NCBI GenBank assembly: GCA_028275145.1
Contig: JAQCNG010000055.1
Span: 1 to 22,388 of the forward strand
Source of the DNA: Halovenus sp.
GTDB lineage: Archaea; Halobacteriota; Halobacteria; Halobacteriales; Haloarculaceae
Length of the DNA stretch: 22,388 bases
Direction of reading: 5' to 3'
Each line of letters starts with the position of its first letter. Position 1 is the stretch's first letter. Positions 5,335 to 22,388 of this stretch are shown piece by piece. A model generated the notes under the pieces. It worked only from the letters and a program-made list of their open reading frames with translations, was not told the origin of the DNA and searched no databases. The position numbers and the translations under genes were made by a program.

Positions 5335-5406
5335 GGGCTCGTAGATCAGCGGCAGATCGCTTCCTTCGCAAGGAAGAGGCCCCGGGTTCGAATCCCGGCG
5401 AGTCCA
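5335..5406 (+). tRNA. tRNA-Ala(CGC), integration target
   Basis: A complete 72-nt cloverleaf. The acceptor stem is GGGCTCG with CGAGTCC, with one G-T pair. The D-stem is GATC/GATC and the anticodon stem CTTCC/GGAAG, with loop TTCGCAA giving anticodon CGC. The T-stem is CCGGG/CCCGG and the discriminator A. No CCA tail is encoded: the visible CCA is the last two acceptor bases plus the discriminator. Its last 13 bases recur at the right end of the window. The gene is therefore intact on the left side of the inserted element, as expected when an integrase targets a tRNA 3' end. Confidence 0.97.
5394..5406 (+). other. attL core (3' end of tRNA-Ala)
   Basis: The 13-base sequence CCCGGCGAGTCCA, covering the T-stem 3' strand, the acceptor 3' strand and the discriminator, is repeated exactly and in the same orientation at 22376-22388. 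The base before the repeat differs (T here, G at the right copy), so 13 bp is the full leftward extent. The right extent cannot be judged because the window ends. Confidence 0.85.
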
Positions 5407-5437
5407 CTCCAGTATCGTCCTGGTCGTGAAGGTCCAC

Positions 5438-5442
5438 TTTTT
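5438..5442 (+). terminator. Possible T-tract terminator after tRNA-Ala
   Basis: A run of five T lies about 32 bases past tRNA-Ala. Short T tracts are enough for termination in many archaea. It lies inside the element, so the host transcript would now end in element DNA. Confidence 0.3.
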
Positions 5443-5586
5443 CCGGTTCTCACCCCATCGAGACTGTTATTTCTCGCAAGAGAGGCTGGAAAATATCCAC
5501 CTCTGAAATCGAAGGTATCCCGATGTCGAGATACGTCCATCGCCGTCTCCGGGATTTGCGAAGGAATGAGCGGGGGGAGCTAGTCT

Positions 5587-7212
5587 ATGCAAACCGAACA
5601 GCAGCACGTCGTCGACGTTCAGGTTCATCGCCTGGCCGCGAACCTGCTGTTCGATGCACATGGGCTGAGTCCCTACTGGGGACTAGTCTCCGTATTCGAC
5701 CCCGATCTCGAAGGCGAGACCGTCGTCGCGGGTGAGGAGTACTCCATCGAGACTGCCAGCTACTGGCAGGGCAAGCTCGCAGACCCGTCCGGCGATGTCG
5801 ACGGCGGCCTCTACGAGTACAAACTCGGACTGTGGTCGACCGACGAGACCGGTGACAAGGGTGCTGATCTGACGTTCAGACCGGGATTCCCGAACGCCGA
5901 GCACGTCGACACTGGCGAAGAAATCGAGGGGATTCCGAGCGACTGCCCCGAATCCGTGCGTGTCCAGGTCGAAGCGACGAATCTGAGCAAACTCGAACTG
6001 TACGGTCTCGTACAGGCGCTGGCCGACACTATCGACTTGAATCCAGCGTACTTCGCGCCCGACGCGGTTCACGAGTGGTCGTCCATCTACGGCCTGGAAA
6101 CGTATCTCCGCATCGAGCGCGCGATGGCCGAGCACCAGCTCGTCGGCGCAGGTGGCATCTTCGAGGAGATTGCACGGTTCAGTAGCGGCGACGGATCGAA
6201 AGGTGAGTGGAAGTGGGATCACGAGAAAACGAAGGGCCACTACGAGGCCGTCGCGCTTGACCCGGCAGCGTGGTCGCGGCTGCTTGACGACCACTCGATG
6301 GCGAAGCGTATCAAGTGCTACCAGCCCCAGCATCCCCGACAGAACGGGCAAGATGACGACCCACTCTATCACCACAAGCTTGAAGCGCAGTACTGGGCTG
6401 GCTACAACTCCTCGGAGAGTCTCGACTGGCACTCCTGCTGGGACCACGTCGAAGAGTTGCGCGAGACCACGCTCAACGTGGTGAACTGGGCCGGTATCTC
6501 CATACGTCCGGACGGCCCGTTTATCGCAGATTCATATTTCGAGCCGGAGATTGCCAACGAACCCATCGAGATTGCGTCGAACCCGATTCCCGAACTGACC
6601 GAGCAGCAGCAACTCACCGCGCGCGAGCAACTCCTCGATCCGGAGACCACCGAGGGCGAGTTCGAGGTGCTCCGTGCGATGACTGATGGCGGTAAGCAGT
6701 TGCATCACTCCGAGGCTGCGGAGTGTTCTGGTACGTCAACGTCGACGGTCTACCGGGCTGTCGAGCAGTTCGACGGGATTCTGGAGGTGCAAAATGGCAC
6801 GGTACAGTTCGTCGACGACGTGGTCCGAAGTGAGGTACAGGGGATAGTCGAGCGCCTAGAGTCTGCGAAAGACTCTGCTCTCGAAGCGGTTCGGCGTACC
6901 GTTGATCGCGCCACTCCACTCTCGGCCGGTGATAGGGGTGAGCCGTCAGCGCTGGAGCAGTGGATGAATCGCCACGGAATTATTCCACAGGAAACCTACG
7001 ACGGGCTCGAACTCCGTCTCGACCGGCCTGTGTCCCGACGCAAACTGGAGAAGATACTCCGGGCTGGCCGGCAAGCTGCTGAGCACAGCCCGACGCTCAC
7101 TGAGCACTTCGAGAACGCGACCATCGACTGGCAGGACCGCGACGGCAACTGGCACGGCAACTGGCAGGTCGTCGTCAACGGCAAGATTCTCGGCCCTGCT
7201 GGCTCCGGCTAA
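5587..7212 (+). CDS. Unknown 541-aa haloarchaeal protein with winged-helix region
   Basis: I do not recognise a characterised family. From memory it resembles an uncharacterised haloarchaeal-only family found on integrated elements; that is not checked. The first 340 or so residues are a globular, acidic, tryptophan-rich region without membrane segments. Residues about 355-410 look like a winged helix: FEVLRAMTDGG, then EAAECSGTSTSTVYRAVEQF as recognition helix, then a wing. The C-terminus ends in a basic, W-rich stretch. The start is supported by GGGGGGAG at 5572-5579, seven bases before the ATG. It is the first gene inside attL and may bind DNA as a regulator, replication initiator or recombination accessory; the sequence does not decide which. 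TATA-like AAAATATCC at 5490-5498 could drive it. Confidence 0.75.
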   Translation: MQTEQQHVVDVQVHRLAANLLFDAHGLSPYWGLVSVFDPDLEGETVVAGEEYSIETASYWQGKLADPSGDVDGGLYEYKLGLWSTDETGDKGADLTFRPGFPNAEHVDTGEEIEGIPSDCPESVRVQVEATNLSKLELYGLVQALADTIDLNPAYFAPDAVHEWSSIYGLETYLRIERAMAEHQLVGAGGIFEEIARFSSGDGSKGEWKWDHEKTKGHYEAVALDPAAWSRLLDDHSMAKRIKCYQPQHPRQNGQDDDPLYHHKLEAQYWAGYNSSESLDWHSCWDHVEELRETTLNVVNWAGISIRPDGPFIADSYFEPEIANEPIEIASNPIPELTEQQQLTAREQLLDPETTEGEFEVLRAMTDGGKQLHHSEAAECSGTSTSTVYRAVEQFDGILEVQNGTVQFVDDVVRSEVQGIVERLESAKDSALEAVRRTVDRATPLSAGDRGEPSALEQWMNRHGIIPQETYDGLELRLDRPVSRRKLEKILRAGRQAAEHSPTLTEHFENATIDWQDRDGNWHGNWQVVVNGKILGPAGSG

Positions 7213-7644: not shown

Positions 7645-7654
7645 AGTGGTCAGG

Positions 7655-8428
7655 ATGCGAATCTTGATTGACCTGTCGGCACGCGCCGATACAGCATACG
7701 ATAACAGCTACCATCACAAGCTTCGTGGGCGCATCTGGCGCGCGCTCGAAGGAACAGAGTACGACAAGATACACGACAAGAACCAACCCAAGCCAGTCAC
7801 CTACAGCAATCCGTTTCCCCCAGGAGACATGCAAGAGGGCGACGAGCGAACGTTGCTCATCGCCTCGCCCGACGAGGAGCTGCTGGCTCACGTCGCCGCC
7901 GATCTGAAAGATGGCCGGGAACTGAATATCGGCGAGATGCCGTTCACCGTCGAGAGCCTGTCGCCGCTGTCGCCCGATGTCGGCGAACCGGGCACCTCCG
8001 GGACGCTGGAGTCCGGGACTGGCGTCCTGGTTCGGATTCCGCCGTGGCGGTTCGACGAGTACGGTATCGATTCTGACCACGACCAGGCGGAGTTCTGGCG
8101 ACCCGAGCACACAATGGAGCCGTTCGTCAATCAGATGGAGGCGAACCTGGACCAGAAACACGACCTGTACTGTCCGGACTATCTGCCCGGACCCTCCGAC
8201 GTGGATGGTGACCTCTTCGACGGCTACGAACTCATCAAAACGTTCGCGCTGCCGGTCACCCCGACGCAGGGAGAGCAGGAGACGTGGGTGCTGAGCAAGT
8301 GGCGACTCGACTACACGGTGCGTGACGACAATCACCGCCGGCACCTGAATCTGCTGCTGGATGTAGGGCTCGGTGAACGGAACAGTCTCGGATTCGGATT
8401 CGTGAACAGGGTGGACAATGAGTACTAA
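7655..8428 (+). CDS. cas6: CRISPR endoribonuclease Cas6 (type I-B)
   Basis: A RAMP-fold ribonuclease that cuts the long CRISPR transcript within each repeat, leaving the 8-nt 5' handle on each crRNA. It starts with a beta strand (MRILIDLSA), followed by the helix YHHKLRGRIWRAL, whose H20/H21 are candidate catalytic histidines. The C-terminal glycine-rich loop GLGERNSLGFGF is the Cas6 signature that binds repeat RNA. The 257-aa length is typical of haloarchaeal Cas6. The start is chosen from the GGAGGTG spacing; a GTG three codons upstream is possible. Its last 11 bases overlap cas8b, so translation is probably coupled. Confidence 0.93.
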   Translation: MRILIDLSARADTAYDNSYHHKLRGRIWRALEGTEYDKIHDKNQPKPVTYSNPFPPGDMQEGDERTLLIASPDEELLAHVAADLKDGRELNIGEMPFTVESLSPLSPDVGEPGTSGTLESGTGVLVRIPPWRFDEYGIDSDHDQAEFWRPEHTMEPFVNQMEANLDQKHDLYCPDYLPGPSDVDGDLFDGYELIKTFALPVTPTQGEQETWVLSKWRLDYTVRDDNHRRHLNLLLDVGLGERNSLGFGFVNRVDNEY

Positions 8429-10634
8429 CGCCCCACCAGAACAGGTTGAGGAAGCACTGTCGCGTCTGCCAGACCGTCGTCCAGCATCGCTGTACGATGT
8501 GGCCGTCCAGTACTCGATTTTCGATTGGTACGAGACGGTCACGTCCGGGGATCTTGACTTCGAGTTGTCGCCGGAGCATCTGTCCTTCATGACGCCTGCC
8601 GCGAAGGAGGATCTCCTCGGTGAACCTGACAACGCATTGGTCGCCTATGTTGACCTGAGCGACCGGAACAACCCAGCGTTCCGAGACGAGGAACCAATTC
8701 GATTCGAGACTGTCGACGCTGGCACTCGCTTCCGACTTGGCCACTCCTATCCTGTTAACAAGACAGCTAACCTGACTGACTACTCGATTACAACCCACAA
8801 GGAGGCCTCAGAGTATCATCTAGCCGGCCGACGTAATGATACCTACGGGACCAACAATATTAAAGACCGATTCACCCGGTGGACCCACAGCGACGCCGCT
8901 GATCGCGTCCTCGAACGGGACGATATCGGCGAGATTTGGATCCTCAACGCGCTCAGAGAACTAGGGGACAATCCCACGCGTATCGACGAACTGGTCACTC
9001 GAGGAGATGTCCCACTTGATCCAGAGGACGAAGACACCGAGCACGAAGTGTTCGTCACAGTGCGAATCAGACTCCCCGGCGAAGACGAGTATCGCTGGCC
9101 CGGCGAAATTGAGGTGCTCAACGAGGTGATGGTCGAGCAGAAGGCTGAGCGCTTCGAGAACATCTCCGTCGAGGACGCTGGTGGGGATGGTGTCGGCTAC
9201 ATAACGGGAGAGGAAGGTCGGGTTACTGGCGGTTCGGCAGGGTTGTTGGGGATGTACGCGAAGCTACAACGCGAACACTTCGCCGACCTATCGCCTGATG
9301 GATCAGCGGCATGGCGGAACCGTCCTATTACTCGTCAGACGGCGGCCGCAATTGCTGTAGCCAATAGCGTATTCGAAGAGTTCTACCAGGGACTTAGCGA
9401 CAGTCGTCGATTGTACGTCTTGCCGTACATCGACGCTCATCCAGAAGCAATCAATCCAGACGACTTCCACGCGTTCGTCCGAGATGTGTTCAGCGAACTT
9501 CGGCTCAGAGAGGACACCTCGCTTCAGGCTAAAGTGGGTGAAGTCTTCTACGAGCGAGATGCCGATGCTGACAACAATTCTGGCAGCATCTTTGAGCAGC
9601 AAGCAGGGGATGCGTACGGCCAAATTGAAGTTGCGACGGTCTTCCAGGTGACGGGTGAACCCGACCGGATCTTCTTTGAGGACCTGACCACAGATGTGTA
9701 TCGTCCACTCGAAGTGCACGCAGAGCACGCTAACGTCTTGCAGTCTGCTGTCTTTCGAGATTGTGGAATCTTTGCTGACGAGCGTGAGTCTTCGGACTCG
9801 CCGTTGCTCATAGCGGGGACAAACCTACGTACTATGGCTCTCTTCGGTAGCTACTTCGACTGGACAACCGAACCGACCCGCAACAGCAAACATGTACAGG
9901 GCACTCCCAAGGCTGGCGACATCGATGACGTACTATCTCGCCGTCTTGGGCAGTTCTTGACCGGTGGAAAACTTCCGGTTCGAACGCTTCTTGAGGAGTA
10001 TCTTCACCTACTCGTACAGGAGCAGCGAGACCTCTTCGAGGAAAGTGAAGGATCGATGATGCCCAGCCGTCAGGTCGCAGAGCAGTACGCACAACTCCGG
10101 ACGCTTGACCGAATCGACGCGCTGGAGGGCAGTTCCAGCGAACAACTGGCTCGTACCGGCACACAGACATCAGCAGCACACAGTACCTTCGCAACCGTGA
10201 CAGAATCTGAGCAGACAGCGTACGAGACACGGGAGCAACGACTCGATGACTTCATCGATACGCACGAAGTCATCAGCAACAGTGACCCCAAACAGGCCGT
10301 GTTCCTGCTAGGTGCGCTCGTGGGGCGCGTCAGCGCCTATCAGCGCAGGCAGAACGTCTCCTCGACGCTCGTTCGTCGATATCCAATCGACTACCTCACC
10401 AAGCAGTCGATCAAGGAAGTGACCAACGAAGTTATTCAGATGAATAATACATATGTCGAGTCCGAGGACAGACTTCCATCAACCTACAACGCCCGCTACA
10501 CGAACCGGTTACCGAATCTGATGCTGGACAGCGACCCATCAGGGTGGTCGTTCCCACAGAACGAACTCCAGTGGCTCTACGCGCTGGGTATCACCTACGG
10601 CATAAACGACACGCAGATTGAGACCGAGGAGTAA
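8418..10634 (+). CDS. cas8b: Cascade large subunit Cas8b (type I-B)
   Basis: The large subunit of the type I-B interference complex, expected to read the PAM and recruit Cas3. The call rests on position (between cas6 and cas7), length (738 aa) and haloarchaeal Cas8b-like stretches, including the N-terminal SLYDVAVQYSIFDWYE and the C-terminal helical region AVFLLGALVGRVSAYQRRQ. Cas8 proteins diverge quickly and have no universal motif, so position carries much of the weight. The C-terminal 190 residues are predicted mostly helical and could double as a small subunit through an internal start (10056). It overlaps cas6 by 11 bp and stops 3 bp before cas7. Confidence 0.9.
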   Translation: MSTNAPPEQVEEALSRLPDRRPASLYDVAVQYSIFDWYETVTSGDLDFELSPEHLSFMTPAAKEDLLGEPDNALVAYVDLSDRNNPAFRDEEPIRFETVDAGTRFRLGHSYPVNKTANLTDYSITTHKEASEYHLAGRRNDTYGTNNIKDRFTRWTHSDAADRVLERDDIGEIWILNALRELGDNPTRIDELVTRGDVPLDPEDEDTEHEVFVTVRIRLPGEDEYRWPGEIEVLNEVMVEQKAERFENISVEDAGGDGVGYITGEEGRVTGGSAGLLGMYAKLQREHFADLSPDGSAAWRNRPITRQTAAAIAVANSVFEEFYQGLSDSRRLYVLPYIDAHPEAINPDDFHAFVRDVFSELRLREDTSLQAKVGEVFYERDADADNNSGSIFEQQAGDAYGQIEVATVFQVTGEPDRIFFEDLTTDVYRPLEVHAEHANVLQSAVFRDCGIFADERESSDSPLLIAGTNLRTMALFGSYFDWTTEPTRNSKHVQGTPKAGDIDDVLSRRLGQFLTGGKLPVRTLLEEYLHLLVQEQRDLFEESEGSMMPSRQVAEQYAQLRTLDRIDALEGSSSEQLARTGTQTSAAHSTFATVTESEQTAYETREQRLDDFIDTHEVISNSDPKQAVFLLGALVGRVSAYQRRQNVSSTLVRRYPIDYLTKQSIKEVTNEVIQMNNTYVESEDRLPSTYNARYTNRLPNLMLDSDPSGWSFPQNELQWLYALGITYGINDTQIETEE
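10056..10634 (+). other. Possible internally started small subunit (Cas11b-like)
   Basis: Two successive in-frame ATG codons (Met547, Met548 of Cas8b) are preceded by the purine-rich GTGAAGGA at 10045-10052. A product started here would have 192 residues and carry the helical C-terminal region. Internal translation of Cas11 from cas8 genes is established for types I-B, I-C and I-D. No separate small-subunit gene exists in this operon. This is inference from context and a weak ribosome-binding site. Confidence 0.4.
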
Positions 10635-10637
10635 TCC

Positions 10638-11678
10638 ATGACACCAGACACCGACACCGACGACAGCACCGTTGAAAACCGCTCAGAGATTGTTTTCCTC
10701 TACGACGCAGAGGACTGTAACCCGAACGGCAATCCACTCTCGGCCAACGACAAGCCACGTGTCGACGAAACAACCGGCGAGGCAGTCGTGACAGACGTTC
10801 GGCTGAAGCGGTACATCCGTGACCAACTGGACGACGACGACTTCGGCATCTACATTCGCAACCCGTCGAAGGCCCCCTACCAAGATGTTCCGGACCGAGA
10901 CGGGCTATTCAAACGCGTGACGGGGATGGACGAGGATGACATTGAGGATACAGACGGAGAAAACGCTGCTGAGACGTTTCTGAACAACGCTGCGGATGTT
11001 CGGTATTTCGGAGCGACCTGCTCGTTCAGCAGCGATTTTCAGGACCTGATTGGCGATGGATTCCCCGGCCAGTTCATCGGCCCTGTCCAGTTTGAGCACG
11101 GCAGGAGTATGCACGTCGTCACGACAAAGACCGAGTCGAAGCAGCTCTCGACGGTCGTGGCCAGCGAGGCGGGCGACGAACAAGGAACGTTCGCAACGGA
11201 CAATCGTCTCGAATACGCCCTCGTGAAGTTCCACGGCGTCGTCAACGAGAACGCGGCTGCCGATACGAACCTCTCTGAGGAGGATGTCGAACGTCTCGAT
11301 TCACTCCTGTGGCGGTCTCTGAAGAGCCAGACACTCACTCGCTCGAAAATGGGCCATCAGCCCCGGCTGTATCTCCGCGCGGAGTACGAGACCGACGACT
11401 ACCACCACGGCGGACTTGACGACGGCATCAAACGGGCAGATGCCGACGAGACCGACGGCGCTGGATACCGGAATATCACGGACGTAACGCTGGCAGTTGA
11501 CGATCTCGTCACGGCCCTCGCCAACGACTGTGGTGATATAGCAGAACTCCACGTCGTCGCCGACGATCACATTACCGTCAGCATCGACGGAGAGACAGGT
11601 GGACCCGATTTCCTCCACGACAAACTGGAAGACGCCGTGGGGGCGGACCTCGTCAATCCCGTCGATGTGTACGAGTAA
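10638..11678 (+). CDS. cas7: Cascade backbone subunit Cas7 (type I-B, Csh2-like)
   Basis: A RAMP protein that polymerises along the crRNA spacer to form the Cascade backbone. The first strand and loop, SEIVFLYDAEDCNPNGNPLS, carry the NPNGNP motif of this Cas7 branch. DVRLKRYIRDQL and the later GHQPRLYLRAEY segment are also typical. The acidic 346-aa protein matches haloarchaeal Cas7 length. It begins 3 bp after cas8b, and its stop overlaps the cas5 start by one base (TAATG). Confidence 0.95.
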   Translation: MTPDTDTDDSTVENRSEIVFLYDAEDCNPNGNPLSANDKPRVDETTGEAVVTDVRLKRYIRDQLDDDDFGIYIRNPSKAPYQDVPDRDGLFKRVTGMDEDDIEDTDGENAAETFLNNAADVRYFGATCSFSSDFQDLIGDGFPGQFIGPVQFEHGRSMHVVTTKTESKQLSTVVASEAGDEQGTFATDNRLEYALVKFHGVVNENAAADTNLSEEDVERLDSLLWRSLKSQTLTRSKMGHQPRLYLRAEYETDDYHHGGLDDGIKRADADETDGAGYRNITDVTLAVDDLVTALANDCGDIAELHVVADDHITVSIDGETGGPDFLHDKLEDAVGADLVNPVDVYE

Positions 11679-12469
11679 TGAACACAGCGATGAGTGACTT
11701 CGATCCAGAGGGACGGCGGTGTGTGTCGTTCACCGTTAGCGGTGAGTGGGCTCACTTCCGGCGAATCGATACAACCAACGACAAGCAGACATATCGCGTG
11801 ATTCCCCGAACGACTGCTGCCGGTCTCATGGCAGCAATCTTGGGCGAACCGCGTGACTCGTACTACGAGGTCTTCGGCCCGGATGTGTCAGCGCTGGCTA
11901 TTGTTCCGACAACGCCGCTCCGAACGATGCAGGTGCCGATCTTGACGCTTCCGACTGCAGAAGGGGACATCCAGACTGCAGAGGGGGTCTCAGGCAAGAC
12001 AGCCATTCCACCGGAGGTACTCAAAGAGGAACGAAAGCGACGGTCCTTCGAGTATCTACGCACACCAGCCTATCGACTCCACGTCGTCCTCGACGACGAG
12101 CAGTGGATGGACCGCCTGATTGATCGGCTGGACGCCAACAGCGACGACAGACCAGAGGTGCGCTCCACGTATACGCCGTCGCTTGGCAAAACAGAGTGCT
12201 TGGCGGAGATTACCGAGAGTACTGTGGGCACCGTTGGGCCTACTGAAACGGTTCAAAGAGTGGATTCGACACTCCCTGAGCGCAAGGTGACGCCCCAAAC
12301 CGATGTGCCATATTCGTTGGAACGGACGCCAGCCTACATGACTGCCAGCGGCGGCGGTCGAAAGACGACGGAGTTCGTCACTTACGCATATCCGGTTGAT
12401 GGCGGAGCGGTGGGAACGGTAGGCGTGGAAGCCAGAGCAGTCAACGGAGACCACGTCTGTTTCATGTAA
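11678..12469 (+). CDS. cas5: Cascade subunit Cas5 (type I-B)
   Basis: A RAMP protein that caps the 5' handle of the crRNA. The N-terminal strand CVSFTVSGEWAHFRR, the TYRVIPRTTAAGLMAAILG helix after it, and ALAIVPTTPLRTMQVPI are characteristic of Cas5b. Length is 263 aa from the ATG overlapping the cas7 stop. A second in-frame ATG at 11690 would remove four residues and cannot be excluded, because neither has a clear Shine-Dalgarno. It ends 9 bp before cas3. Confidence 0.93.
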   Translation: MNTAMSDFDPEGRRCVSFTVSGEWAHFRRIDTTNDKQTYRVIPRTTAAGLMAAILGEPRDSYYEVFGPDVSALAIVPTTPLRTMQVPILTLPTAEGDIQTAEGVSGKTAIPPEVLKEERKRRSFEYLRTPAYRLHVVLDDEQWMDRLIDRLDANSDDRPEVRSTYTPSLGKTECLAEITESTVGTVGPTETVQRVDSTLPERKVTPQTDVPYSLERTPAYMTASGGGRKTTEFVTYAYPVDGGAVGTVGVEARAVNGDHVCFM

Positions 12470-12478
12470 CCCACCAGT

Positions 12479-15055
12479 ATGACTGATTCGTCATCATACC
12501 TCGCGCGACCGGGACAACCTCTCGGTGAACATCTCGAGGGAGTCGCTGCGAATGCTGCGACACTCGTTCCGAACGACGCGCAAACACCCAGAGACGAATC
12601 GCTCCACGCGCTCGTCCAAACAGTCGCTCAACTCCACGATATCGGCAAACTCACGCCGGCGTTCCAGCAGTACATTCGAGAGGAGCGGAACCGACCACCG
12701 ACACCATCCGAGTACCACGCTGCTCCTGGAGCGATACTGACGTTCCACGCGCTCGCAAGCCAGCAGTTCAGTCCGGCAACCGCGACTGCCGGATTTTATG
12801 CGGTGCTACAACATCACCAGGCGCTCCCGAATGTCGAGGATGTGCATCCGGACTGGCGTGCTGACTTTGGCAACTACGATGGCCTCGGGAGGAAACTACA
12901 GGGCATCGAGCGAAGTGCACGCGAGCAAGCCAGTGAACGACTGGAAGTGGTAACAGACGGTGCGCTCTCGTGGGACGATATTCATGTCGACGACCCAGCG
13001 CAGTACGCGGACTGGTTTCCGTCAGTCCCGTTCGGCGACGACTTCGACAAATTCTACCCGCTGGTTCAGCGGGTCTGGTCGACGTTAACCTGTGCCGACA
13101 AGTTGGATGCCGCCGACGCGCCGCTTGCTCCGAGGACCGAGCGCCCGGACCCCGACCAGATCGGCTTCGAGAGCGAAGCGGCTGGCATCGAACGCGAACT
13201 CAACGAACTCCGGTCCGAGGCCCAGCAGTCGGTCTCGGAGGCTCTCTCGTCGGTCGAGAGCGGGTCAAGCGGCGTGTTTACGCTCACTCTTCCGACCGGG
13301 TTCGGGAAGACGTTCGCCGGACTCAAAGCTGCACTCCAGCGGGCTGGAGAAACCGGCGGGCGCGTGGTCTACGCGTTGCCGTACACGACGATTCTCGACC
13401 AAGTCGACGATGCTGTTCGAGAACAGTTTGCGGTGTCTCCTGCCTCCGAACAGTACACGCTCCATCATCACCTCGCAGATACTCGAACAGCAGTTGCGGA
13501 CAATAACGAGAGCGTCTCAGATGGGACCGAAACACTGTACGGTGAGTCGTGGCAGGCCGGGTTGTTGCTGACAACAACCGTTCAGCTATTCGAGAGTCTT
13601 GCCGGGTCAGCGAATCTCCAGTCGATAAAGCTGCCAGCGCTACAGGACGCGGTGATTATCGTCGACGAACCGCAGGTGTTGCCACGAGAGTGGTGGCGGC
13701 TGATCACACACCTGTTTGATGTGCTCACCGACAGGTACGACGCAACGGTGATACTGATGACAGCCACCCAGCCTCGCTTTGTCGACCAGAGTTCGGTCCC
13801 GCTGAATCCAACCGAACTGGTTGCCAACCCAGGCCAGTACTTCGAATTTCTCGCCGACAACGAGCGAGTCATCTTCGATATCGACGACTCAATTCCGCTT
13901 GGGACTGATTCGCAATCCTCGCCAGTCGAGCCAGAGACGGCTGGGAGACGACTGGTCGAGCAGACGTGTGCGAACGGCGGCGCGACGCTCTCGATTGCCA
14001 ACACGGTCCAGAACGCGACTGAATTGAGTGAGACAGTTCGAGACTCTGCCCGGGACCGTTCGCTCAACGTGCTCAATCTTGGAGCGGTACTCGAGTCGTA
14101 CACCGCCGACAACACCGAGCGGGTCGTCGCCCAGTTGGAGGGTGAGGACGACATCGAAGAACTGGCCGGCGAACTCGTCGACGAGATTCGAGAGCGGTGT
14201 GTGGAGCAGGACGTGAATCTGCTCACGGCGTCGCTTACTGCCGCGTTGCGACCCAGCGACCGGGTGTTGCTTATCGAAACAATCTCATCGTTGCTCGACG
14301 TCTCGTCTGACGAGACACCGGGGTGTCCAGTTCTCGTTACCAGCACGCAGCTCGTCGAGGCTGGCGTTGACCTCAGTTTCGACCGCGTGTACCGTGACTT
14401 CGCACCGGTACCGAATCTCGCGCAGGCCGCTGGTCGGTGCAACCGCTCGTTCGAGACAGACTGTGGTAGGGTCGTACTCTGGCGACTGTCGAGTCCAGAG
14501 CACGACCGGCTTCCCTCGGAATTGATCTACACGCGCTCCGGTGACCGACTGACACCGACGACAGTCGCTCTCGAAAACGTTGGGGGCGAGGCAGGGACAG
14601 TTCCAGAGTTTGCGATGATCACCGACGGCGTCGAGACGTACTACGATGCACTCCACGACAGAGACCACCGTGAACACGGCCACGACGAACTCGTCATAGC
14701 ACACGAACGAGCGCGCGGAGAGACACTCCGGGAGGCGTCACTGATCGACGACCACAGTGAGGAGGTGCTTGTGGTGCGAACCGAGGCCGAACGGGAAGTT
14801 CTGACTGAGTATCTCACCGCGAAGACCGCTGGAACGCTCCAAGCCGGGAAAGAGGCGATGGCCACGCTGCAACAACTGTTCGCGTCGGTTCCGGAGGACC
14901 GGGCAGTAACAATAGACGAGTCCGAGGCCGTCGTGGACGAACTCGGTTTCGACGCTGACCTGCTTGAGGAGTTTGCCGTCGTTCTCGACCTCGCCCGGTC
15001 GCGATACGATCTCCGGAACGGGTCTGGATTACGGAGGACAGACCGACTCGTATAA
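12479..15055 (+). CDS. cas3: CRISPR nuclease-helicase Cas3
   Basis: Degrades target DNA after Cascade recognition. The N-terminal HD nuclease domain has H18, the HD pair H53-D54 with K57, H80 and H112-H113. The superfamily 2 helicase follows: motif I LPTGFGKT with K277, motif II DEPQ at 396-399, motif III MTATQP from 427, then TSTQLVEAGVDLSF and motif VI QAAGRCNR at 649-656. All key residues are present, so interference looks intact. At 858 aa it is a single-chain HD-helicase Cas3. Its stop overlaps a TATA box, and cas2 follows after 33 bp where cas4 and cas1 would normally be. Confidence 0.96.
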   Translation: MTDSSSYLARPGQPLGEHLEGVAANAATLVPNDAQTPRDESLHALVQTVAQLHDIGKLTPAFQQYIREERNRPPTPSEYHAAPGAILTFHALASQQFSPATATAGFYAVLQHHQALPNVEDVHPDWRADFGNYDGLGRKLQGIERSAREQASERLEVVTDGALSWDDIHVDDPAQYADWFPSVPFGDDFDKFYPLVQRVWSTLTCADKLDAADAPLAPRTERPDPDQIGFESEAAGIERELNELRSEAQQSVSEALSSVESGSSGVFTLTLPTGFGKTFAGLKAALQRAGETGGRVVYALPYTTILDQVDDAVREQFAVSPASEQYTLHHHLADTRTAVADNNESVSDGTETLYGESWQAGLLLTTTVQLFESLAGSANLQSIKLPALQDAVIIVDEPQVLPREWWRLITHLFDVLTDRYDATVILMTATQPRFVDQSSVPLNPTELVANPGQYFEFLADNERVIFDIDDSIPLGTDSQSSPVEPETAGRRLVEQTCANGGATLSIANTVQNATELSETVRDSARDRSLNVLNLGAVLESYTADNTERVVAQLEGEDDIEELAGELVDEIRERCVEQDVNLLTASLTAALRPSDRVLLIETISSLLDVSSDETPGCPVLVTSTQLVEAGVDLSFDRVYRDFAPVPNLAQAAGRCNRSFETDCGRVVLWRLSSPEHDRLPSELIYTRSGDRLTPTTVALENVGGEAGTVPEFAMITDGVETYYDALHDRDHREHGHDELVIAHERARGETLREASLIDDHSEEVLVVRTEAEREVLTEYLTAKTAGTLQAGKEAMATLQQLFASVPEDRAVTIDESEAVVDELGFDADLLEEFAVVLDLARSRYDLRNGSGLRRTDRLV

Positions 15056-15058
15056 AAA
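15051..15058 (+). promoter_or_regulatory. TATA box before cas2
   Basis: TATAAAAA overlaps the cas3 stop codon and is centred about 35 bp before the cas2 ATG. It predicts a start near 15080 with a leader of under 10 nt. cas2, and possibly leader transcription, could thus be independent of the cas6-cas3 operon. Confidence 0.55.
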
Positions 15059-15088
15059 GTTTGAACTATTCAGACTTGTACTCGTATT

Positions 15089-15349
15089 ATGTACGCAATT
15101 GTCGTCTACGATATGCAGGCCCACCGGACGCAGAAGGCTCTGAAACTCGGGCGCAGATACCTGACCCACGTCCAGAACTCCGTGCTCGAAGGCGAGATAT
15201 CGGAGGGAGATCTGGAAACGCTACGGGGAGAGTTCGAGGCGCTACTCGAACCGGGAGAATCGGTCATCATCTACGAATTGTCCTCTGATACCCTCCTCAA
15301 TAGAACCGTCTACGGACAGGATCCGACTGAAGACCAGCGGTTTCTGTAG
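15089..15349 (+). CDS. cas2: CRISPR adaptation protein Cas2
   Basis: A small ferredoxin-fold protein that bridges two Cas1 dimers in the spacer-integration complex. The first strand MYAIVVYD carries the conserved aspartate (D8). RRYLTHVQNSVLEGEIS and the C-terminal NRTVYGQDPTEDQRFL match haloarchaeal Cas2. The 86-aa length is normal and no residue looks broken. It sits alone: no cas1 or cas4 is present anywhere in the window, so by itself it cannot form an acquisition complex. It lies directly upstream of the CRISPR leader. Confidence 0.94.
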   Translation: MYAIVVYDMQAHRTQKALKLGRRYLTHVQNSVLEGEISEGDLETLRGEFEALLEPGESVIIYELSSDTLLNRTVYGQDPTEDQRFL

Positions 15350-15453
15350 ATTTCTCCGTCGACCCCCCGGGGGACTGTCGACTATTGCAGGTCGACGGAA
15401 AACATTTGTTCTCTCCGCCCTGTAGCACGCCTGTTGCCCGGAAATCGGGCATG
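15350..15453 (+). promoter_or_regulatory. CRISPR leader
   Basis: The 104 bases between cas2 and the first repeat. The leader lies on this side because the decayed terminal repeat is at the other end and the array reads toward the GTTGAAGC handle. It contains CCGTCGACC (15356-15364) and its exact inverted copy GGTCGACGG (15390-15398) around CCCCCCGGGGG. A second inverted repeat, TGCCCG/CGGGCA (15435-15451), ends two bases before repeat 1. The array promoter is not obvious; AAAACATTT at 15398-15406 is the best weak candidate. Confidence 0.75.
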
Positions 15454-18179
15454 GTTTCAGACGGACCCTCGTGGGGTTGAAGCCGCACGAGTGTCTACGA
15501 GACATACGACTACGACCCCGTTTCAGACGGACCCTCGTGGGGTTGAAGCATCTCCGATGACCTGGCCGAAACCGAGCGCGAACTGTTTCAGACGGACCCT
15601 CGTGGGGTTGAAGCACGACCGCGTAGACCGGCCGGGATTGTAGCCCGTCGGTTTCAGACGGACCCTCGTGGGGTTGAAGCGACCGCGCGGTGCCGGAGAG
15701 CCAGCGGTTCGAGGGTTTCAGACGGACCCTCGTGGGGTTGAAGCTCTGTCACGCCACCACAGGACGGCGGCGAGGCCGAGTTTCAGACGGACCCTCGTGG
15801 GGTTGAAGCGGCCCGCTTTTTGATGACGTGGGTCGCGGGTGTCGAGAAGTTTCAGACGGACCCTCGTGGGGTTGAAGCGTCCTCGTCGAGCTTGGTGTAG
15901 GCCGGCTCCTCGGGTTTCAGACGGACCCTCGTGGGGTTGAAGCAGCCGCGCGGCCACCTCCTCGTCGAACGGGATGCGTTTCAGACGGACCCTCGTGGGG
16001 TTGAAGCGAGCAGCGCGGTTGCCGTCATCGGTTGCCCCCGCGGGTTTCAGACGGACCCTCGTGGGGTTGAAGCGGGCCACGGATCGACACGCCCCGCATC
16101 CACGACATCAGTTTCAGACGGACCCTCGTGGGGTTGAAGCGAGTCGAAGTCCGGCGCGTCGGCCGTCACGGTCACGCGTTTCAGACGGACCCTCGTGGGG
16201 TTGAAGCGGCTCTCCGTTTGTGGGGCTCTCGGATTGGAACACCGTTTCAGACGGACCCTCGTGGGGTTGAAGCGGCGACAAACGACTCGACTCGGCTGTC
16301 GTGGACGGTTTCAGACGGACCCTCGTGGGGTTGAAGCTCAGCGACGCCGACGCTGTCGCTACGTCAGCGGTTTCAGACGGACCCTCGTGGGGTTGAAGCA
16401 CAATCGCTGAGAGTTTTGAGTCGCCGACCGCGGGTTTCAGACGGACCCTCGTGGGGTTGAAGCGGCCTGCTCGCGCTCGTCCTCGTCGCGTGGCCGGCGG
16501 GTTTCAGACGGACCCTCGTGGGGTTGAAGCGCCAACAGGAGGAGTGCCGTCACGAGCGCGAGCGGTTTCAGACGGACCCTCGTGGGGTTGAAGCGACCAC
16601 TTGCTACAGGCACGCGACGGTGAGATTGCACGGTTTCAGACGGACCCTCGTGGGGTTGAAGCTCGACACTCGAAAGTATCGTAATGGTCGGCGTCGGGGT
16701 TTCAGACGGACCCTCGTGGGGTTGAAGCCCGCCGGAACTGCGGCGGGGAGAGTGAGTCGTCAAGTTTCAGACGGACCCTCGTGGGGTTGAAGCTCACTGT
16801 CGGCAAAGTTGTCCTCCGAGGCCGGGGGGTTTCAGACGGACCCTCGTGGGGTTGAAGCGGGCACAAATAATGTGTGTGTTGTCTGTTGGGCTAGTTTCAG
16901 ACGGACCCTCGTGGGGTTGAAGCCGAAGCGCGGGAGTACCGCCGGCCATAGTGTCGTTTCAGACGGACCCTCGTGGGGTTGAAGCTTTGTGGCCGCACTG
17001 ACCCGTGTGGCCCGAACCCAGGGTTTCAGACGGACCCTCGTGGGGTTGAAGCGTTGCGTTGTCACGTGTGTGTGTAGTTTGTGCTGTAAAGTTTCAGACG
17101 GACCCTCGTGGGGTTGAAGCACCCTGCCCCGGCTGGGCGAGCTCGACAGCCAGACGCGTTTCAGACGGACCCTCGTGGGGTTGAAGCGAGGAGGGCGCGG
17201 CTGTCCGGTGGTCGTGGCAAGGGTTTCAGACGGACCCTCGTGGGGTTGAAGCCGCCTTGAGATCGTCCAGGCGCGGGGTGTCACCAGTTTCAGACGGACC
17301 CTCGTGGGGTTGAAGCGAAACCATTACTGGTCTCGTTGTAGTCGAAGCTGACTTGTTTCAGACGGACCCTCGTGGGGTTGAAGCAGCAGAGTATGTGAAC
17401 GGGACCGCGGGACCGGGTAGGGTTTCAGACGGACCCTCGTGGGGTTGAAGCGCCGAACGCCCGGTCTGCATCGCCGCCGTCGTCAAACGGTTTCAGACGG
17501 ACCCTCGTGGGGTTGAAGCCTCCGGCTGTGTGCCGCCGCGTTCGGCATCCCACAGGTTTCAGACGGACCCTCGTGGGGTTGAAGCAATTGTATCATCGTT
17601 GTCGGGTCCCCCTCGTGACCGGAGTTTCAGACGGACCCTCGTGGGGTTGAAGCGACACCGCTACCTGTTTCGACTTGCTCGATACTGCCGGTTTCAGACG
17701 GACCCTCGTGGGGTTGAAGCTCGTTAAACATGACGTTCTGTGAATCAATATTCACAACGGTTTCAGACGGACCCTCGTGGGGTTGAAGCAACGAGTTCTG
17801 GGCGAACCTCGCGCGCGAGCGCGCGTTTCAGACGGACCCTCGTGGGATTGAAGCCTGTGGATGGGCGACAACGACATGGAATTTTGCCGCGTTTCAGACG
17901 GACCCTCGTGGGGTTGAAGCGAGATATCGCTTGGCGTGAGTGTCGTGGTTGTCGTGTTTCAGACGGACCCTCGTGGGGTTGAAGCTTGCTGTCGATAACG
18001 GCCGACGAGGAGCCGGTGGTTTCAGACGGACCCTCGTGGGGTTGAAGCCTCTGGATGGGCGACTGTGATATGCAGTTCACCCGGTGTTTCAGACGGACCC
18101 TCGTGGGGTTGAAGCATCCGTATCCGGTAGCCGCAACAGTAGCAGTCCCGTTTCAGATGAATCCTCGTAGGATTTAGTT
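15454..18179 (+). CRISPR. Type I-B CRISPR array, 42 repeats and 41 spacers
   Basis: I counted 41 canonical 30-bp repeats and one decayed terminal repeat (18150-18179). Spacers are 32-39 bp, mostly 34-38. The repeat begins GTTTCAGACG and ends GGGGTTGAAGC, a haloarchaeal type I-B repeat whose last 8 bases form the crRNA 5' handle. A short stem (ACCC with GGGT, repeat positions 12-15 and 21-24) is the Cas6 substrate hairpin. Repeats are identical except the one at 17825-17854, which has G to A at position 23. The terminal repeat has 10 differences. Several spacers read as open coding frames. Open reading frames through the array on either strand arise from the repeat and are not genes. Confidence 0.98.
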
Positions 18180-18253
18180 ACGCTCCGAGTTCGTGTGTGC
18201 AGCTCTATACTCATAGGACTCCTTTTGAAGCAGTGGACGAGAACACCGATTCG

Positions 18254-18898
18254 TTATCCCTCAGAGCGCTGCTCCAGAATCGACAGCTCGGGCTCGCGCT
18301 CGCCGACGCCACGCTCGCCGACATCCAGCCAGTTGACCTTCGAGAGTTCCCGCCGCTGCACCGCTGGCGAGTACGATCCCCGGTAATGCTCCAGAAAGGT
18401 CTCGATATCCTCCCAGCCGCCGAAGTCCATGATGAGCAGCGGGTCGTCGATGTCAGCACTCAGCAGCGTGGCCCAAGTTCGGCGGAGGTCGTGTGGCGTG
18501 ACGTGCGCCCACATCTCGTCACCCTGGTCGGCCAGCTCGCCGGTGACGCTATCGAGGTGGCGCTGGACCCAGCGTGTCGAGTGGTCGACCAGCGGTGTCT
18601 CCGGCCCCTGCAGGTCGGCGACGGTCTCGGCCATCGCCAGAATGTCCTTGGTCGTTGGCGTCTCGCGGTAAGCTTTGCCCTTCGAGTCCCAGACGCGGAC
18701 CCGCGGCCCGGCGCTCGTCGAGACCACGTCCTTCGCCTCGACGCTGACGATTTCGCGCACCCGCAGCCCCGACCGGACACCCAGCGCGAACGCGATGCGC
18801 TCCTCCCGCGAGTCGGCCGCCGCGAGCAACTCGTCGGTCTCGTCGAGGTCGAGCCAGATGCGATAGCCGTCCTTGCCCTCGAATGGTTCGGCGAACAT
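18254..18898 (-). CDS. Catalytic-domain-only tyrosine recombinase
   Basis: A 214-aa tyrosine recombinase. The catalytic set is complete: R46 in SGLRVRE, a beta-hairpin lysine near K74-K76, H136 and R139 in PHDLRRTW, W162 in the GGWEDIETF position, and nucleophile Y172 in EHYRG. It begins almost directly with the catalytic domain and lacks the usual N-terminal SAM-like core-binding domain. Short forms like this are common in haloarchaea. It reads toward the CRISPR array and ends 74 bp from the terminal repeat. A run of 22-bp-phased repeats lies 105-170 bp upstream of its start. Roles in dimer resolution or a secondary inversion or excision reaction are possible; nothing here decides. Confidence 0.88.
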   Translation of the reverse strand: MFAEPFEGKDGYRIWLDLDETDELLAAADSREERIAFALGVRSGLRVREIVSVEAKDVVSTSAGPRVRVWDSKGKAYRETPTTKDILAMAETVADLQGPETPLVDHSTRWVQRHLDSVTGELADQGDEMWAHVTPHDLRRTWATLLSADIDDPLLIMDFGGWEDIETFLEHYRGSYSPAVQRRELSKVNWLDVGERGVGEREPELSILEQRSEG

Positions 18899-19164: not shown

Positions 19165-19428
19165 TTATTCTCGTTTTTGTTTGTCTTTACACCAGTTAAA
19201 GAGTCTCTGGCGTAGGTCATCATCTGTCTCACCGAATATGCTCCCGAGTCGATACCCAAGATTGTCCCACGTCAGTTCCTCGGGTGGTGGTCCTTCGGAA
19301 TATTTCGACGATTCTCCATCATTGAGATCCTTGACAGCAGCCGTCCAGCCTCGTTTGAAAGCGCCTTGTCGGTCGCTATCCGCGGCTTGCCGTACATCTC
19401 CCATCGGGATTGTTGGATCATCGGCCAT
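19165..19428 (-). CDS. Small hypothetical protein
   Basis: 87 aa, acidic and soluble with no membrane segment. I recall similar small haloarchaeal proteins (a GWTAAVQDLNDGE-like stretch followed by PPEELTWxNLGYRLG), but no function is known to me. The ATG at 19428 begins MADDPTIPMGDVRQAADSD. It lies between the two clusters of 22-bp-phased repeats and on the same strand as the short recombinase. Cluster 2 is 140 bp upstream of its start. Confidence 0.7.
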   Translation of the reverse strand: MADDPTIPMGDVRQAADSDRQGAFKRGWTAAVKDLNDGESSKYSEGPPPEELTWDNLGYRLGSIFGETDDDLRQRLFNWCKDKQKRE

Positions 19429-19567
19429 ATCGACTATTTGATTACTCGGCTTAAAAAATCTAGGTGTGCCCGAACTCGGTAGATAGATACTCTGTATTCA
19501 TCACGCGCCCTTCGCCTGTATCAGGTTCTGGGAAGATGTTTCGCTACCTAATGTCACCTCTATAGTA

Positions 19568-19611
19568 TTCTGCGACATAGATTATCGTGTTCTGCGACCC
19601 TGCTAAATCCC
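19568..19611 (+). repeat. Phased direct repeat cluster 2 (2 x 22 bp)
   Basis: TTCTGCGAC occurs at 19568-19576 and 19590-19598, again exactly 22 bp apart and in the same orientation as cluster 1. The second copy continues CCTGCTAAATC, resembling cluster 1 copy 3 (ACTGCTGGATC). It lies 140-183 bp upstream of the minus-strand 87-aa gene. Confidence 0.65.
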
Positions 19612-20170
19612 TCTGTGTAGTCCGAGCTATCCACGATAATCCATCTGAATATTATTTGAATTACGCATACTAGTCCGTGGGCCTGTACTTTACAATGATG
19701 AATACTGACGCCGCAATCAATTTCTAAAAATAAACCACAGTCGCCGACGTCGGTTAATATTGTAAAAGAATCCGCCGAGTATTGGTATCCCCTACCTCAT
19801 ACCGATGCCCGGTTAATGAAGCTATGCAAAGTAAGCCGATTAGTTCCTTGGAAGAGGGTTGTCTTTCGGTCGACCAGTACCCGACCCCGTCCATATTCGC
19901 GCCATGACACCCATGCCGTTTGGCGGTCTGTCACTCGTCCGCTGGTAGCCTAGAATCGCTGTCGTGATCGGTGATGATATAATATGATAGCCCGCGGAGT
20001 CAGCGACTGAAGCAGAAAAATGATAGGAAACCAATACTAAGTAACATATGCAATACCTACGGCTGAATTGTACGCTCTGACAGTCGCTGGCCCGTCCATT
20101 CTATTCCCCATCAGCCCCATTCATTCGGGCGATTTCCCGTGTCAGTCGGATTTGGCTCTGTAGCTTGGCT

Positions 20171-20186
20171 GGTCATGGCCATGACC
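20171..20186. repeat. Perfect 16-bp palindrome
   Basis: GGTCATGGCCATGACC equals its own reverse complement. It lies 280 bp past the end of the PhiH1-like regulator gene in non-coding DNA. A binding site for a dimeric regulator is the simplest reading. Confidence 0.6.
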
Positions 20187-20466
20187 CCGCCGCTGTCGGG
20201 TGAACTAATCTTTTCGGGGGAGGTCGTAATCCCACATCCGATTCTCAGCACAGATCCGGTCATCTCACTCTCGATTGCCCTCGGTCTCCGCCGTAATCAA
20301 GGCGACCCGACTAATTCGGAGGTTTACATCCGATTCCCCAGACGTTACAAGCACAATAGATTTCGAAGACCTCCAGCCGAGACAGCAAGAAGATGCGATT
20401 CTGGCGCATCGCTCGGTGACATCCATTCCGCCATGTGCAATCGACCGTTAATCGCTGTCCTATATC

Positions 20467-20790
20467 TCAGACAGACTCGTCAGATTCGTCTCCGAGAGAA
20501 GTCTCCTCCGGTTGGGACACTTCCGGGCTGTTGTCCGGCCTGTCAACGTGCGTATCCAGCCCCCCCTCAAGATACCTCTCGCCGCGCTCTGTAATAGTGT
20601 ACACGCCGTTCCCGACCGGCTTGAGCAGGCCGTGATCGGCGAGTTTCTGGCACCGCTCCGAGATATAGCCCCGAGAGTACCGTATTGGGCCCTCCCGTTT
20701 CATCTCCGTCGGGGACCCGTGCTCGTGTTCGTAGATATACTCGAGGATGCGATCATCAACAATCGTCATCCACTTTCCTGACCGTCGCAT
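20467..20790 (-). CDS. PhiH1-repressor-like winged-helix regulator
   Basis: A 107-aa winged-helix protein of the haloarchaeal PhiH1 repressor family, DNA-binding regulators common on proviruses and integrated elements. The N-terminus MRRSGKWMTIVDDRILEYI is the family hallmark and fixes the start at 20790. The helix-turn-helix covers SPTEMKREGPIRYSRGYISERCQKLADHGLL (residues 26-56, in pieces), followed by the wing KPVGNGVYTITERGERYL. The C-terminal 30 residues are acidic and disordered. It is divergent from the zinc-finger/integrase pair, so it may control that pair through the region between them. Confidence 0.88.
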   Translation of the reverse strand: MRRSGKWMTIVDDRILEYIYEHEHGSPTEMKREGPIRYSRGYISERCQKLADHGLLKPVGNGVYTITERGERYLEGGLDTHVDRPDNSPEVSQPEETSLGDESDESV

Positions 20791-21142: not shown

Positions 21143-21310
21143 ATGATTGAGCACTGTCCCTACTGCGAGCAGTCGTTTGCGGACCCCTGTGACCTGTACC
21201 GCCACGCCATGACCGAGCACCGTCTTGGCGTACTCTCGTACTGGATCGAGCAGCACGACGTGACGCCGGTCGTGACCGGCCAGCAGCGATTGCAGGAGGC
21301 GGTCCTATGA
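21143..21310 (+). CDS. C2H2 zinc-finger mini-protein
   Basis: A 55-aa protein with one textbook C2H2 finger: C5-x2-C8-x12-H21-x4-H26, with the hydrophobic F12 and L18 in their usual places. The remainder is a short helical tail (LSYWIEQHDV). Its TGA overlaps the integrase ATG by four bases (ATGA), so the two are translationally coupled and the start of this gene is the only in-frame one before the cysteines. A DNA-binding accessory or excisionase-like partner, or a regulator of the integrase, is likely. No closer family is recognised. Confidence 0.8.
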   Translation: MIEHCPYCEQSFADPCDLYRHAMTEHRLGVLSYWIEQHDVTPVVTGQQRLQEAVL

Positions 21311-22323
21311 ATGACGACCTCCGGCCACTCTCCCCCGAAGAAGGTGTCGAGCGATTCCTGCAGCACCGGGAGCCGTCGGTCAGAAAGAGCACCCTGCAGA
21401 ACGCGAAAACCCGGCTGCGCTACTGGCTAGAGTGGTGCGACGAGCGCGACATCGGGAACCTCAATGAACTCACGGGCCGCGACCTAGCAGACTTCGTGGC
21501 CTGGCGGCGCGGCGATATCGCTCCCATCACGCTACAGAAGCAGCTGAGTACTATCCGTATGGCTCTCCGCTGGTGGGCGGATATCGAGGCTGTCGAGGAA
21601 GGCCTCGCCGAGCGATTGCATGCGCCAGAACTCCCGGACGGTGCGGAGTCCCGGGATCGCCATCTCGAACCGGAACGGGCCAAACAGGTACTGGAATACT
21701 ACGACCGACACCACTACGCCAGCCGTGAGCACGCCCTGCTTGCACTCATGTGGCGGACAGGACTCCGGCGAGGTGCTGTCTGGTCGCTCGACGTAGACGA
21801 CCTCAAACCGGAGGAGAATGCCGTCAGACTGGAGCACCGACCTGAGCAGGGTACGAAACTCAAGAACGGCGAGCGCGGCGAGCGGTGGGTCTATCTCGGA
21901 CCGCGCTGGTTCCAAATTCTGGAGGACTGGGTCAAGAACCCCGACCGGCCACAGGGAACCGACGAGTACGGCCGCGAGCCGCTGTTTCCGACCCAGCGCG
22001 GCAACCGACCGAACCCACAAACCATCTACAAGTGGGTGATTCGTGCGCTCCACCCTTGCGAGTACGCCGAGTGTCCGCATGGTCGGACACCGGAGTCCTG
22101 CGATGCACGCGGACGAACAGCGAACGTCTCCGCCTGTCCGTCGTCGGTCAATCCACACGCCATCCGCCGGGGCGCGATCACTCACCACCTCACCGAGGAT
22201 GTTCCGCCGGAGACCGTGAGCGAGCGCATGGATGTCTCACTCGATGTGCTGTACGACCACTACGACGCCCGCACTCAGCGCGAGAAGATGTCCGTCCGAA
22301 CTGAGCACCTGCCAGACTCATAA
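21307..22323 (+). CDS. Tyrosine integrase of the element
   Basis: A full-length 338-aa phage-type integrase. The N-terminal SAM-like core-binding domain spans about residues 10-105 (VERFLQHREPSVRKSTLQN onward). The catalytic domain has R154 in TGLRRGAVW, K184 or K186 in the hairpin, H284 and R287 in PHAIRRG, and the nucleophile most likely Y319 in DHYDAR. An insertion with four cysteines (C251, C256, C265, C277) precedes the HxxR box and could bind zinc; I recall similar inserts in haloarchaeal integrases. It ends 52 bp before attR, so it most likely performs tRNA-Ala integration and excision. The gene is uninterrupted, so the enzyme should be functional. Confidence 0.94.
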   Translation: MNDDLRPLSPEEGVERFLQHREPSVRKSTLQNAKTRLRYWLEWCDERDIGNLNELTGRDLADFVAWRRGDIAPITLQKQLSTIRMALRWWADIEAVEEGLAERLHAPELPDGAESRDRHLEPERAKQVLEYYDRHHYASREHALLALMWRTGLRRGAVWSLDVDDLKPEENAVRLEHRPEQGTKLKNGERGERWVYLGPRWFQILEDWVKNPDRPQGTDEYGREPLFPTQRGNRPNPQTIYKWVIRALHPCEYAECPHGRTPESCDARGRTANVSACPSSVNPHAIRRGAITHHLTEDVPPETVSERMDVSLDVLYDHYDARTQREKMSVRTEHLPDS

Positions 22324-22375
22324 CCACCATGATAACAAACGCCGAAAACCACATGACAGCACCGTGTGATACCTG

Positions 22376-22388
22376 CCCGGCGAGTCCA
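22376..22388 (+). other. attR core (tRNA-Ala 3' end copy)
   Basis: CCCGGCGAGTCCA is an exact direct copy of 5394-5406. It is not part of a second tRNA gene: the bases just upstream form no T-loop or anticodon arm. This marks the right end of the element, although the repeat could extend past the window edge. Confidence 0.85.

Follow-up and report, generated by a model that had tools for sequence, protein, structure and literature searches.

A tRNA-Ala integrative element of Halovenus sp. carrying a type I-B CRISPR-Cas locus without recognised cas1 or cas4

Type I-B systems of clustered regularly interspaced short palindromic repeats (CRISPR) and their cas genes have been found on integrated elements of haloarchaea before. 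In the accessible portions of the respective reports, a complete I-B system is described in a pleomorphic-virus prophage, prophage 1 of 'Halanaeroarchaeum sulfurireducens' M27-SA2 (PMC4866403, 2016), and I-B sets without cas1, cas2, and cas4 are described in haloarchaeal proviruses, for which "adaptive outsourcing" was proposed (PMC12596717, 2025). Here, we examined a 22,388-bp stretch of Halovenus sp. (assembly GCA_028275145.1, contig JAQCNG010000055.1; hereafter the window, meaning the whole stretch), in which an island anchored at a transfer RNA (tRNA) gene for alanine carries I-B interference genes and a 41-spacer array. The window makes up an entire contig (G000:C12) of a draft assembly of 2.38 Mb in 366 contigs, 77% complete.

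Our findings confirm the original prediction that the island is a genuine integrative element specific for a tRNA gene, and that its main cargo is the CRISPR locus. The sequence CCCGGCGAGTCCA, the 3' end of tRNA-Ala(CGC) at 5394-5406, has a second exact copy at 22376-22388, a spacing of 16,982 bp, and a pattern search of the 2.38-Mb assembly returns these 2 exact copies only. The right copy begins 52 bp 3' of the stop codon of an intact tyrosine integrase; the chance expectation for the 13-mer within 150 bp of that stop is ~2e-6. Both the repeat and the intact integrase had been predicted, and both stand. The island has a guanine plus cytosine (G+C) content of 58.5% versus 65.1% in the left flank, the last 707 bp of which are 89% identical to a same-genus genome; the translations of the left flank include what we take to be EF-1A and S10 homologues. 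Thus, a tRNA-end repeat, an intact adjoining integrase and, as detailed below, a site empty or otherwise occupied in relatives are found together, as in tRNA-specific tyrosine-integrase elements. The features that bear on integration and interference are as follows.

5335..5406, + strand: tRNA-Ala(CGC), intact (ARAGORN, Rfam); the left attachment core is formed by its final 13 bases, 5394-5406
7646..8428, + strand: cas6, processing of CRISPR RNA (TIGR01877, E 8e-24)
8418..10634, + strand: cas8b, the I-B signature, TM1802/Csh1 (PF09484, E 4e-18, above cut-off; TIGR02591, E 7e-23, below the NCBIfam cut-off)
10638..11678, + strand: cas7, Csh2 (TIGR02590, E 2e-80)
11678..12469, + strand: cas5b (TIGR02592, E 6e-39)
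12479..15055, + strand: cas3, HD nuclease and helicase (PF18019, PF22590; Cas3b, E 1e-169)
15089..15349, + strand: lone cas2, intact, 86 amino acids, 33 bp after cas3 (PF09827, E 2e-15)
15350..15453, + strand: leader, with motifs in common with leaders of complete I-B loci (compared by eye)
15454..18181, + strand: CRISPR array, 41 repeats of 30 nt, 40 of them identical, and a degenerate terminal repeat from 18150
21307..22323, + strand: tyrosine integrase, open frame of 338 amino acids (PF00589, Phage_integrase, E 5e-10)
22376..22388, + strand: right attachment core, the same 13 bases as the tRNA end (sequence match), also the contig end

Cas family models match cas6, cas7, cas5, and cas3 over most of their length. 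In Cas8b the model matches are confined to residues 513-727, the C-terminal part, and an alignment at 72% with an annotated TM1802-family CRISPR protein from a plasmid of Halalkaliarchaeum sp. AArc-CO covers residues 7-736. The effector genes of I-B (Cas8b with Cas5b-Cas7-Cas6-Cas3) are all present and cas2 alone represents cas4-cas1-cas2; we file the locus as I-B on its effector genes, because absence of the adaptation module has been published for mobile I-B loci. The annotated loci of Haloferax mediterranei and Haloarcula hispanica have cas4 and cas1 between cas3 and cas2; at the window locus neither cas1 nor cas4 gave a match, cas4 having been searched at the locus only. The predicted "complete" I-B system therefore stands for the interference genes cas6-8b-7-5-3 and falls for adaptation, with cas1 and cas4 not found at the locus and no Cas1 in the assembly. 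The predicted 41-spacer array is borne out, with 41 distinct spacers of 32-39 nt; no other array with its repeat was reported in the assembly among the 40 of 52 candidates scored. Compared with the AArc-CO plasmid locus, nonsynonymous divergence (dN) is 0.09-0.36 and synonymous divergence (dS) ~2-2.9, the latter saturated and for cas6 not computable, values in line with purifying selection on the cas genes. Judged from its genes, the I-B system looks able to cut invaders; with no cas4 or cas1, the locus should not add spacers alone.

We propose, with a probability of about 0.83, that the island integrates at tRNA-Ala through the 13-bp core and carries, as cargo, an interference-capable I-B system without local spacer writing. 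The core on an excised circle would recombine with the identical tRNA 3' end, leaving an intact tRNA at the left and a 13-bp copy at the right, the anatomy seen here and in relatives. Cas6 would cleave the transcript of the 41-spacer array, and Cas8b-Cas7-Cas5 would locate targets with a TTC motif for degradation by Cas3, as the intact genes and one matching target lead us to infer. Lacking Cas1 and Cas4, the locus should gain no new spacers by itself; the Cas1-Cas2-Cas4 of a co-resident complete I-B system may add them in trans, a route suggested by the conserved leader and repeat, and otherwise the array would be fixed. Excision, transfer between strains, and acquisition in trans are inferred.

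The matching target belongs to spacer 36. In G005, a genome of the same genus, a sequence preceded by a 5' TTC differs from this spacer at 1 of 35 positions and lies in a gene that reads like a serine recombinase; two places in G102 match at 91%. TTC is among the haloarchaeal I-B motifs listed in the accessible part of the M27-SA2 report (PMC4866403). The spacer search covered 146 genomes of the family, of which 35 (own included) gave matches, with two candidates per genome scored; matches other than those of spacer 36 were short or of low identity and were set aside. A weak 26-base match to a Burkholderia phage, from a comparison of the 41 spacers with a phage collection, was rejected as chance. 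The arrays of the window and of the AArc-CO plasmid have zero spacers in common; their spacer content has therefore changed since the two loci diverged, either through acquisition or through array exchange. Separately, spacers 37 (17855-17890) and 40 (18049-18085) encode, by our own reading, a similar peptide, LWMGDxDMxF, as though both derived from homologous genes carried by two related invaders; a degenerate pattern built on them found one contig among viral contigs, with only 27 of 36 bases matching.

The remaining features of the window are these.

5587..7212, + strand: DUF7845 protein, 541 amino acids, 180 bp after the tRNA (PF25227, E 4e-84; phrog_3288, a viral "transcriptional regulator", E 4e-82)
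18254..18898, - strand: second tyrosine recombinase, 214 amino acids, essentially the catalytic domain only (PF00589, E 7e-15)
19165..19428, - strand: open reading frame (ORF) of 87 amino acids, without family match
20467..20790, - strand: element-family regulator, winged-helix by our own reading (phrog_2440, "transcriptional regulator", E 4e-34)
21143..21310, + strand: ORF of 55 amino acids, C2H2-like in its spacing, that overlaps the start of the integrase (ATGA), without family match

About 1 kb, at 19430-20466, holds no recognised gene. The C2H2-like ORF was considered as a family-wide excision factor and rejected, being present in 2 of 22 loci, one doubtful. In the left flank, ARAGORN calls a tRNA-Val on the minus strand at 1279-1353, inside an ORF of 424 amino acids; it is possibly spurious.

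The same anatomy recurs among relatives of the integrase. A search of the 146 family genomes gave 22 loci at ~58% identity or more, the window included, which together with a 46% relative (G105) make 23 loci, read in stretches of up to 20 kb; 10 of the 23 stretches may not cover the whole element, and a partial hit of 172 amino acids in G140 was excluded. The 13-bp core lies within ~90 bp of the integrase in 22 of the 23. Thirteen stretches include tRNA-Ala (12 CGC and one GGC, that of G105), and in every one of them the end of the locus's own tRNA-Ala is repeated exactly (at least 13 bp) beside the integrase, bounding elements of 11-19 kb; where the tRNA end varies (CCCCGCGAGTCCA, CCCAGCGAGTCCA, CCCCGCTCGTCCA, CCCGGCAAGTCCA), the repeat beside the integrase changes along with it. 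The ten stretches without tRNA-Ala show the standard core in eight cases, a variant matching its own tRNA, on another contig, in G033, and none in G116. Four relatives outside this set, at 68-69% identity in Natrinema, Natronolimnohabitans, Natrialba, and Halovivax, were obtained from a scan of named genome contigs and lie in stretches that hold no tRNA; 46-61 bp beyond the integrase match, each has a sequence that agrees with the core in 11-12 of 13 bases; a scan of viral contigs confirmed no relative. The 22 other loci have common parts, namely a homologue of the regulator (19/22) and a DUF7845 gene toward the tRNA end (7/22). Their cargo was scanned in 11 loci (Pfam on 124 of 164 called proteins, PHROGs on 58, PADLOC on 66): L086-L089, four close relatives with 58 proteins together, gave two terminase-family matches and one head-protein-family match, and seven further elements (66 proteins) gave Cdc6-lid ATPases, a Rep-like protein, a restriction enzyme, methylases, and a TIR domain. 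The Cas proteins and repeat of the window have no match in the other 22 stretches or in the elements of G008 and G026 described below, the repeat having been searched on one strand.

Comparison of the tRNA-Ala site itself, as the original prediction had advised, agrees with this picture. Among 20 relatives fetched at tRNA-Ala, three of them readable for less than 2 kb past it, four have a related integrase downstream, of the window type in G022 and G018 and of another type in G008 and G026. Eight same-genus genomes are readable for at least 2.5 kb past the tRNA, and none carries the window island or a cas match in the stretch read; one of them, G008, holds a different element (L040) at the same tRNA-Ala, whose repeat is 30 bp long and whose integrase is inverted and 37% identical. 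Thus, the cas locus is not fixed at the site with unrelated flanks, tRNA-Ala sites without the island exist, in other species, and the same integrase type and site are found with other cargo. Contig ends offer a further hint. Contigs stop exactly at the core or the tRNA end in the window, in G162 (G162:C10), and in G017 (G017:C22), and in G033 (C53, C77) one contig stops at the tRNA end and another a single base past the core. As the 13-bp core is far shorter than usual assembly words, a stop there suggests alternative junctions, that is, more than one sequence following the same end in the sample, as for integrated and excised or empty forms. Contig stops at attachment cores could then serve as a simple marker for active elements in draft metagenome genomes.

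The cas genes have relatives of their own. In trees of 35 Cas8 and Cas7 proteins, from which a broken and masked locus (L147) was left out, the window locus and 13 others form a clade (support 100/100 and 99/97) that spans five family codes and two named plasmids. For 12 of the 14 loci the stretch holds no cas4 and no full-length cas1, and several of them retain broken cas1 or cas2 pieces; the other two are cut by contig ends, one in a 98%-complete genome with no Cas1 (G044) and one in a genome with Cas1 on another contig (G219). An intact adaptation module was observed in no locus of the clade, two of them being cut short, and the varied cas1 and cas2 remnants allow several independent losses. 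In one locus (L136 of G063, reverse strand, oriented 14259-15724) two cas2 copies flank an N-terminally truncated cas1, as if the repeats had recombined. A full Cas1 is encoded elsewhere in 7 of 11 clade genomes searched. For a plasmid of Halomontanus rarus a complete I-B system is reported in the accessible part of the 2025 study (PMC12596717); the stretch examined here shows none. A Cas8 scan of named genome contigs and viral contigs confirmed no relative. The Cas8b of Halobacterium GSL-19, the only one of the three published proviral loci represented in the trees, is 28% identical to that of the window and stands apart from it on strongly supported branches in both the Cas8 and Cas7 trees.

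The original prediction had also advised a search for further islands with this integrase plus cas genes. None is found in the stretches read of the other 22 integrase loci; related cas loci do lie on tRNA-Thr and tRNA-Val elements. In G149 (L142, L196, L197) a cas locus of the clade is bracketed by tRNA-Thr(GGT) and, at a distance of 24.7 kb, a 14-bp repeat of the tRNA end. An integrase is found 51 bp from this repeat, DUF7845 adjoins the tRNA, and DndFGH-like genes are also present (the DndH-like protein was scanned over 1255 of 1889 residues); this element thus unites interference-only I-B, DndFGH-like genes, and DUF7845. In G178 a clade locus is flanked by tRNA-Val(GAC) and, 39.4 kb from it, a 13-bp copy, which is 62 bp past an integrase 38% identical to that of the window; this element also has a Cdc6-like ATPase, and its DUF7845 gene is separated from the tRNA by ~3.3 kb. 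A control genome, G081 (L225, L149, L226), has a complete I-B system with cas4-cas1-cas2 between tRNA-Phe and a 14-bp copy 29 kb apart, the copy ~60 bp past a tyrosine recombinase match. I-B on tRNA-anchored elements therefore recurs, with complete and incomplete sets alike, and the supposed rarity of haloarchaeal I-B outside chromosomes and megaplasmids is weakened as an argument by this tRNA-Phe element and the proviral cases of 2016 and 2025. Among loci with at least 54 kb of context, 2 of 8 in the clade (plus the window) are bracketed by a tRNA and its copy versus 1 of 10 controls with intact cas1, and DUF7845 accompanies 3 of 8 versus 1 of 10; with counts this small, it is not established that the adaptation-free clade is enriched in tRNA-bracketed loci. 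For the locus in G138 a tRNA-Lys attachment core was sought on the same strand over 120 kb and not found.

Several observations weigh against our proposal. The contig ends with the 13 bases of the right core, which leaves the chromosomal flank on that side outside the assembly and out of view, and one of the 23 integrase loci (G116) has no core. The site comparisons within the genus are with other species, none between strains of one species. Among the island proteins scanned (10 window proteins by Pfam, 8 by PHROGs) no replication, transfer, capsid, or packaging genes were recognised, so the element may be defective or need a helper; together with the cross-species nature of the comparisons, this makes the predicted "direct vehicle" for moving immunity between strains an overstatement. 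A convincing target was found for 1 of the 41 spacers only, across the phage collection, which gave none, and the 146 genomes. As to adaptation, no Cas1 was found in the 77%-complete assembly by a search that did detect Cas1 in Haloferax volcanii, nor in 4 of the 11 clade genomes searched, and acquisition in trans therefore cannot be general. The absence of cas1 is also not confined to the clade, being scored for 14 of 14 rows inside it and 7 of 21 outside, a label that applies to what was read of each locus (contig or stretch ends truncate G044, G219, and G388, and control row G121 has only partial cas4).

Could the cas locus be resident in the chromosome, with the integrase and 13-mer belonging to a smaller unrelated insertion or to coincidence? 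The unseen outer flank and the second recombinase between array and integrase would permit it, yet the pairing of the core with tRNA-Ala in relatives of 11-19 kb, the position of the cas genes inside the common ends, DUF7845 near the tRNA and the regulator near the integrase, the eight same-genus sites without a cas match, and the low G+C of the island make it highly improbable. That the island is a dead remnant, in which integrase module and cas genes persist and nothing excises or interferes, is unlikely: it would account for the unrecognised replication and transfer genes, the short second recombinase, the ~1 kb without a recognised gene, and the missing cas1 and cas4, but fits poorly with an integrase and five cas genes that are all open, with low dN, with a kept leader and 40 of 41 repeats identical, and with a contig end that hints at alternative junctions.

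A defective provirus of the published adaptation-deficient lineage, that of Haloferax lucentense, Natrinema salifodinae, and Halobacterium GSL-19, would explain the same gene set without cas1 and cas4, the viral families to which DUF7845 and the regulator belong, and the terminase and head-protein matches in L086-L089. Nevertheless, the strongly supported separation from the GSL-19 Cas8b, the intact cas2, and the lack of any recognised capsid or packaging gene among the window proteins scanned render such a descent rather improbable. Our proposal of a tRNA-Ala element with interference-capable I-B cargo can be extended, at odds we place somewhat short of even, to the clade as a whole: an old I-B lineage may have dropped its adaptation genes and persisted as interference-only systems on tRNA elements and plasmids across several haloarchaeal families, drawing spacers from the host's complete I-B system. 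If true, this would be a mobile effector that borrows its memory writing. The island is compact and clearly delimited, its attachment sites are defined, and it brings interference genes together with a spacer library but no spacer-writing set; with its tRNA-Thr and tRNA-Val sister elements it provides a testable case for adaptation borrowed from resident systems, and a test of whether spacer libraries travel between hosts as one block.

How, then, does the island compare with known systems? Going by the accessible portions of the reports, M27-SA2 prophage 1 likewise holds I-B genes and an array in an integrated element with a tRNA at one flank and a XerC/D integrase at the other, but it has eight cas genes including cas4-cas1-cas2, clear pleomorphic-virus genes, and a length of ~28.5 kb (PMC4866403). 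The proviral I-B loci of H. lucentense, N. salifodinae, and GSL-19 are, like that of the window, interference-only and on a mobile element without cas1 and cas4; unlike it, they are also described without cas2, in proviruses or provirus remnants (PMC12596717), and their Cas8b belongs to a different lineage as far as the single locus compared, GSL-19, can tell. The plasmid of Halalkaliarchaeum sp. AArc-CO (NZ_CP087722.1) has the closest Cas8b found and the same cas6-8b-7-5-3 order with an array, with no cas1, cas2, or cas4 found in a 26-kb stretch; unlike the window locus, it sits on a 167-kb plasmid, with no related integrase or tRNA in that stretch. In Haloquadratum genomic island 3, too, a tRNA 3'-end repeat and an integrase bound accessory genes, yet the integrase is beside the tRNA and the accessible part of the report mentions no CRISPR cargo (PMC3119063). 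In the openly readable literature (subscription papers, preprints, and supplements lying outside this scope) we did not find described either the tRNA-Ala carrier without recognised virion genes or the separate Cas8b clade without an observed intact adaptation module. Overall, mobile I-B CRISPR-Cas is already known as a kind, and the window is a further case of it, on a separate Cas8b lineage.

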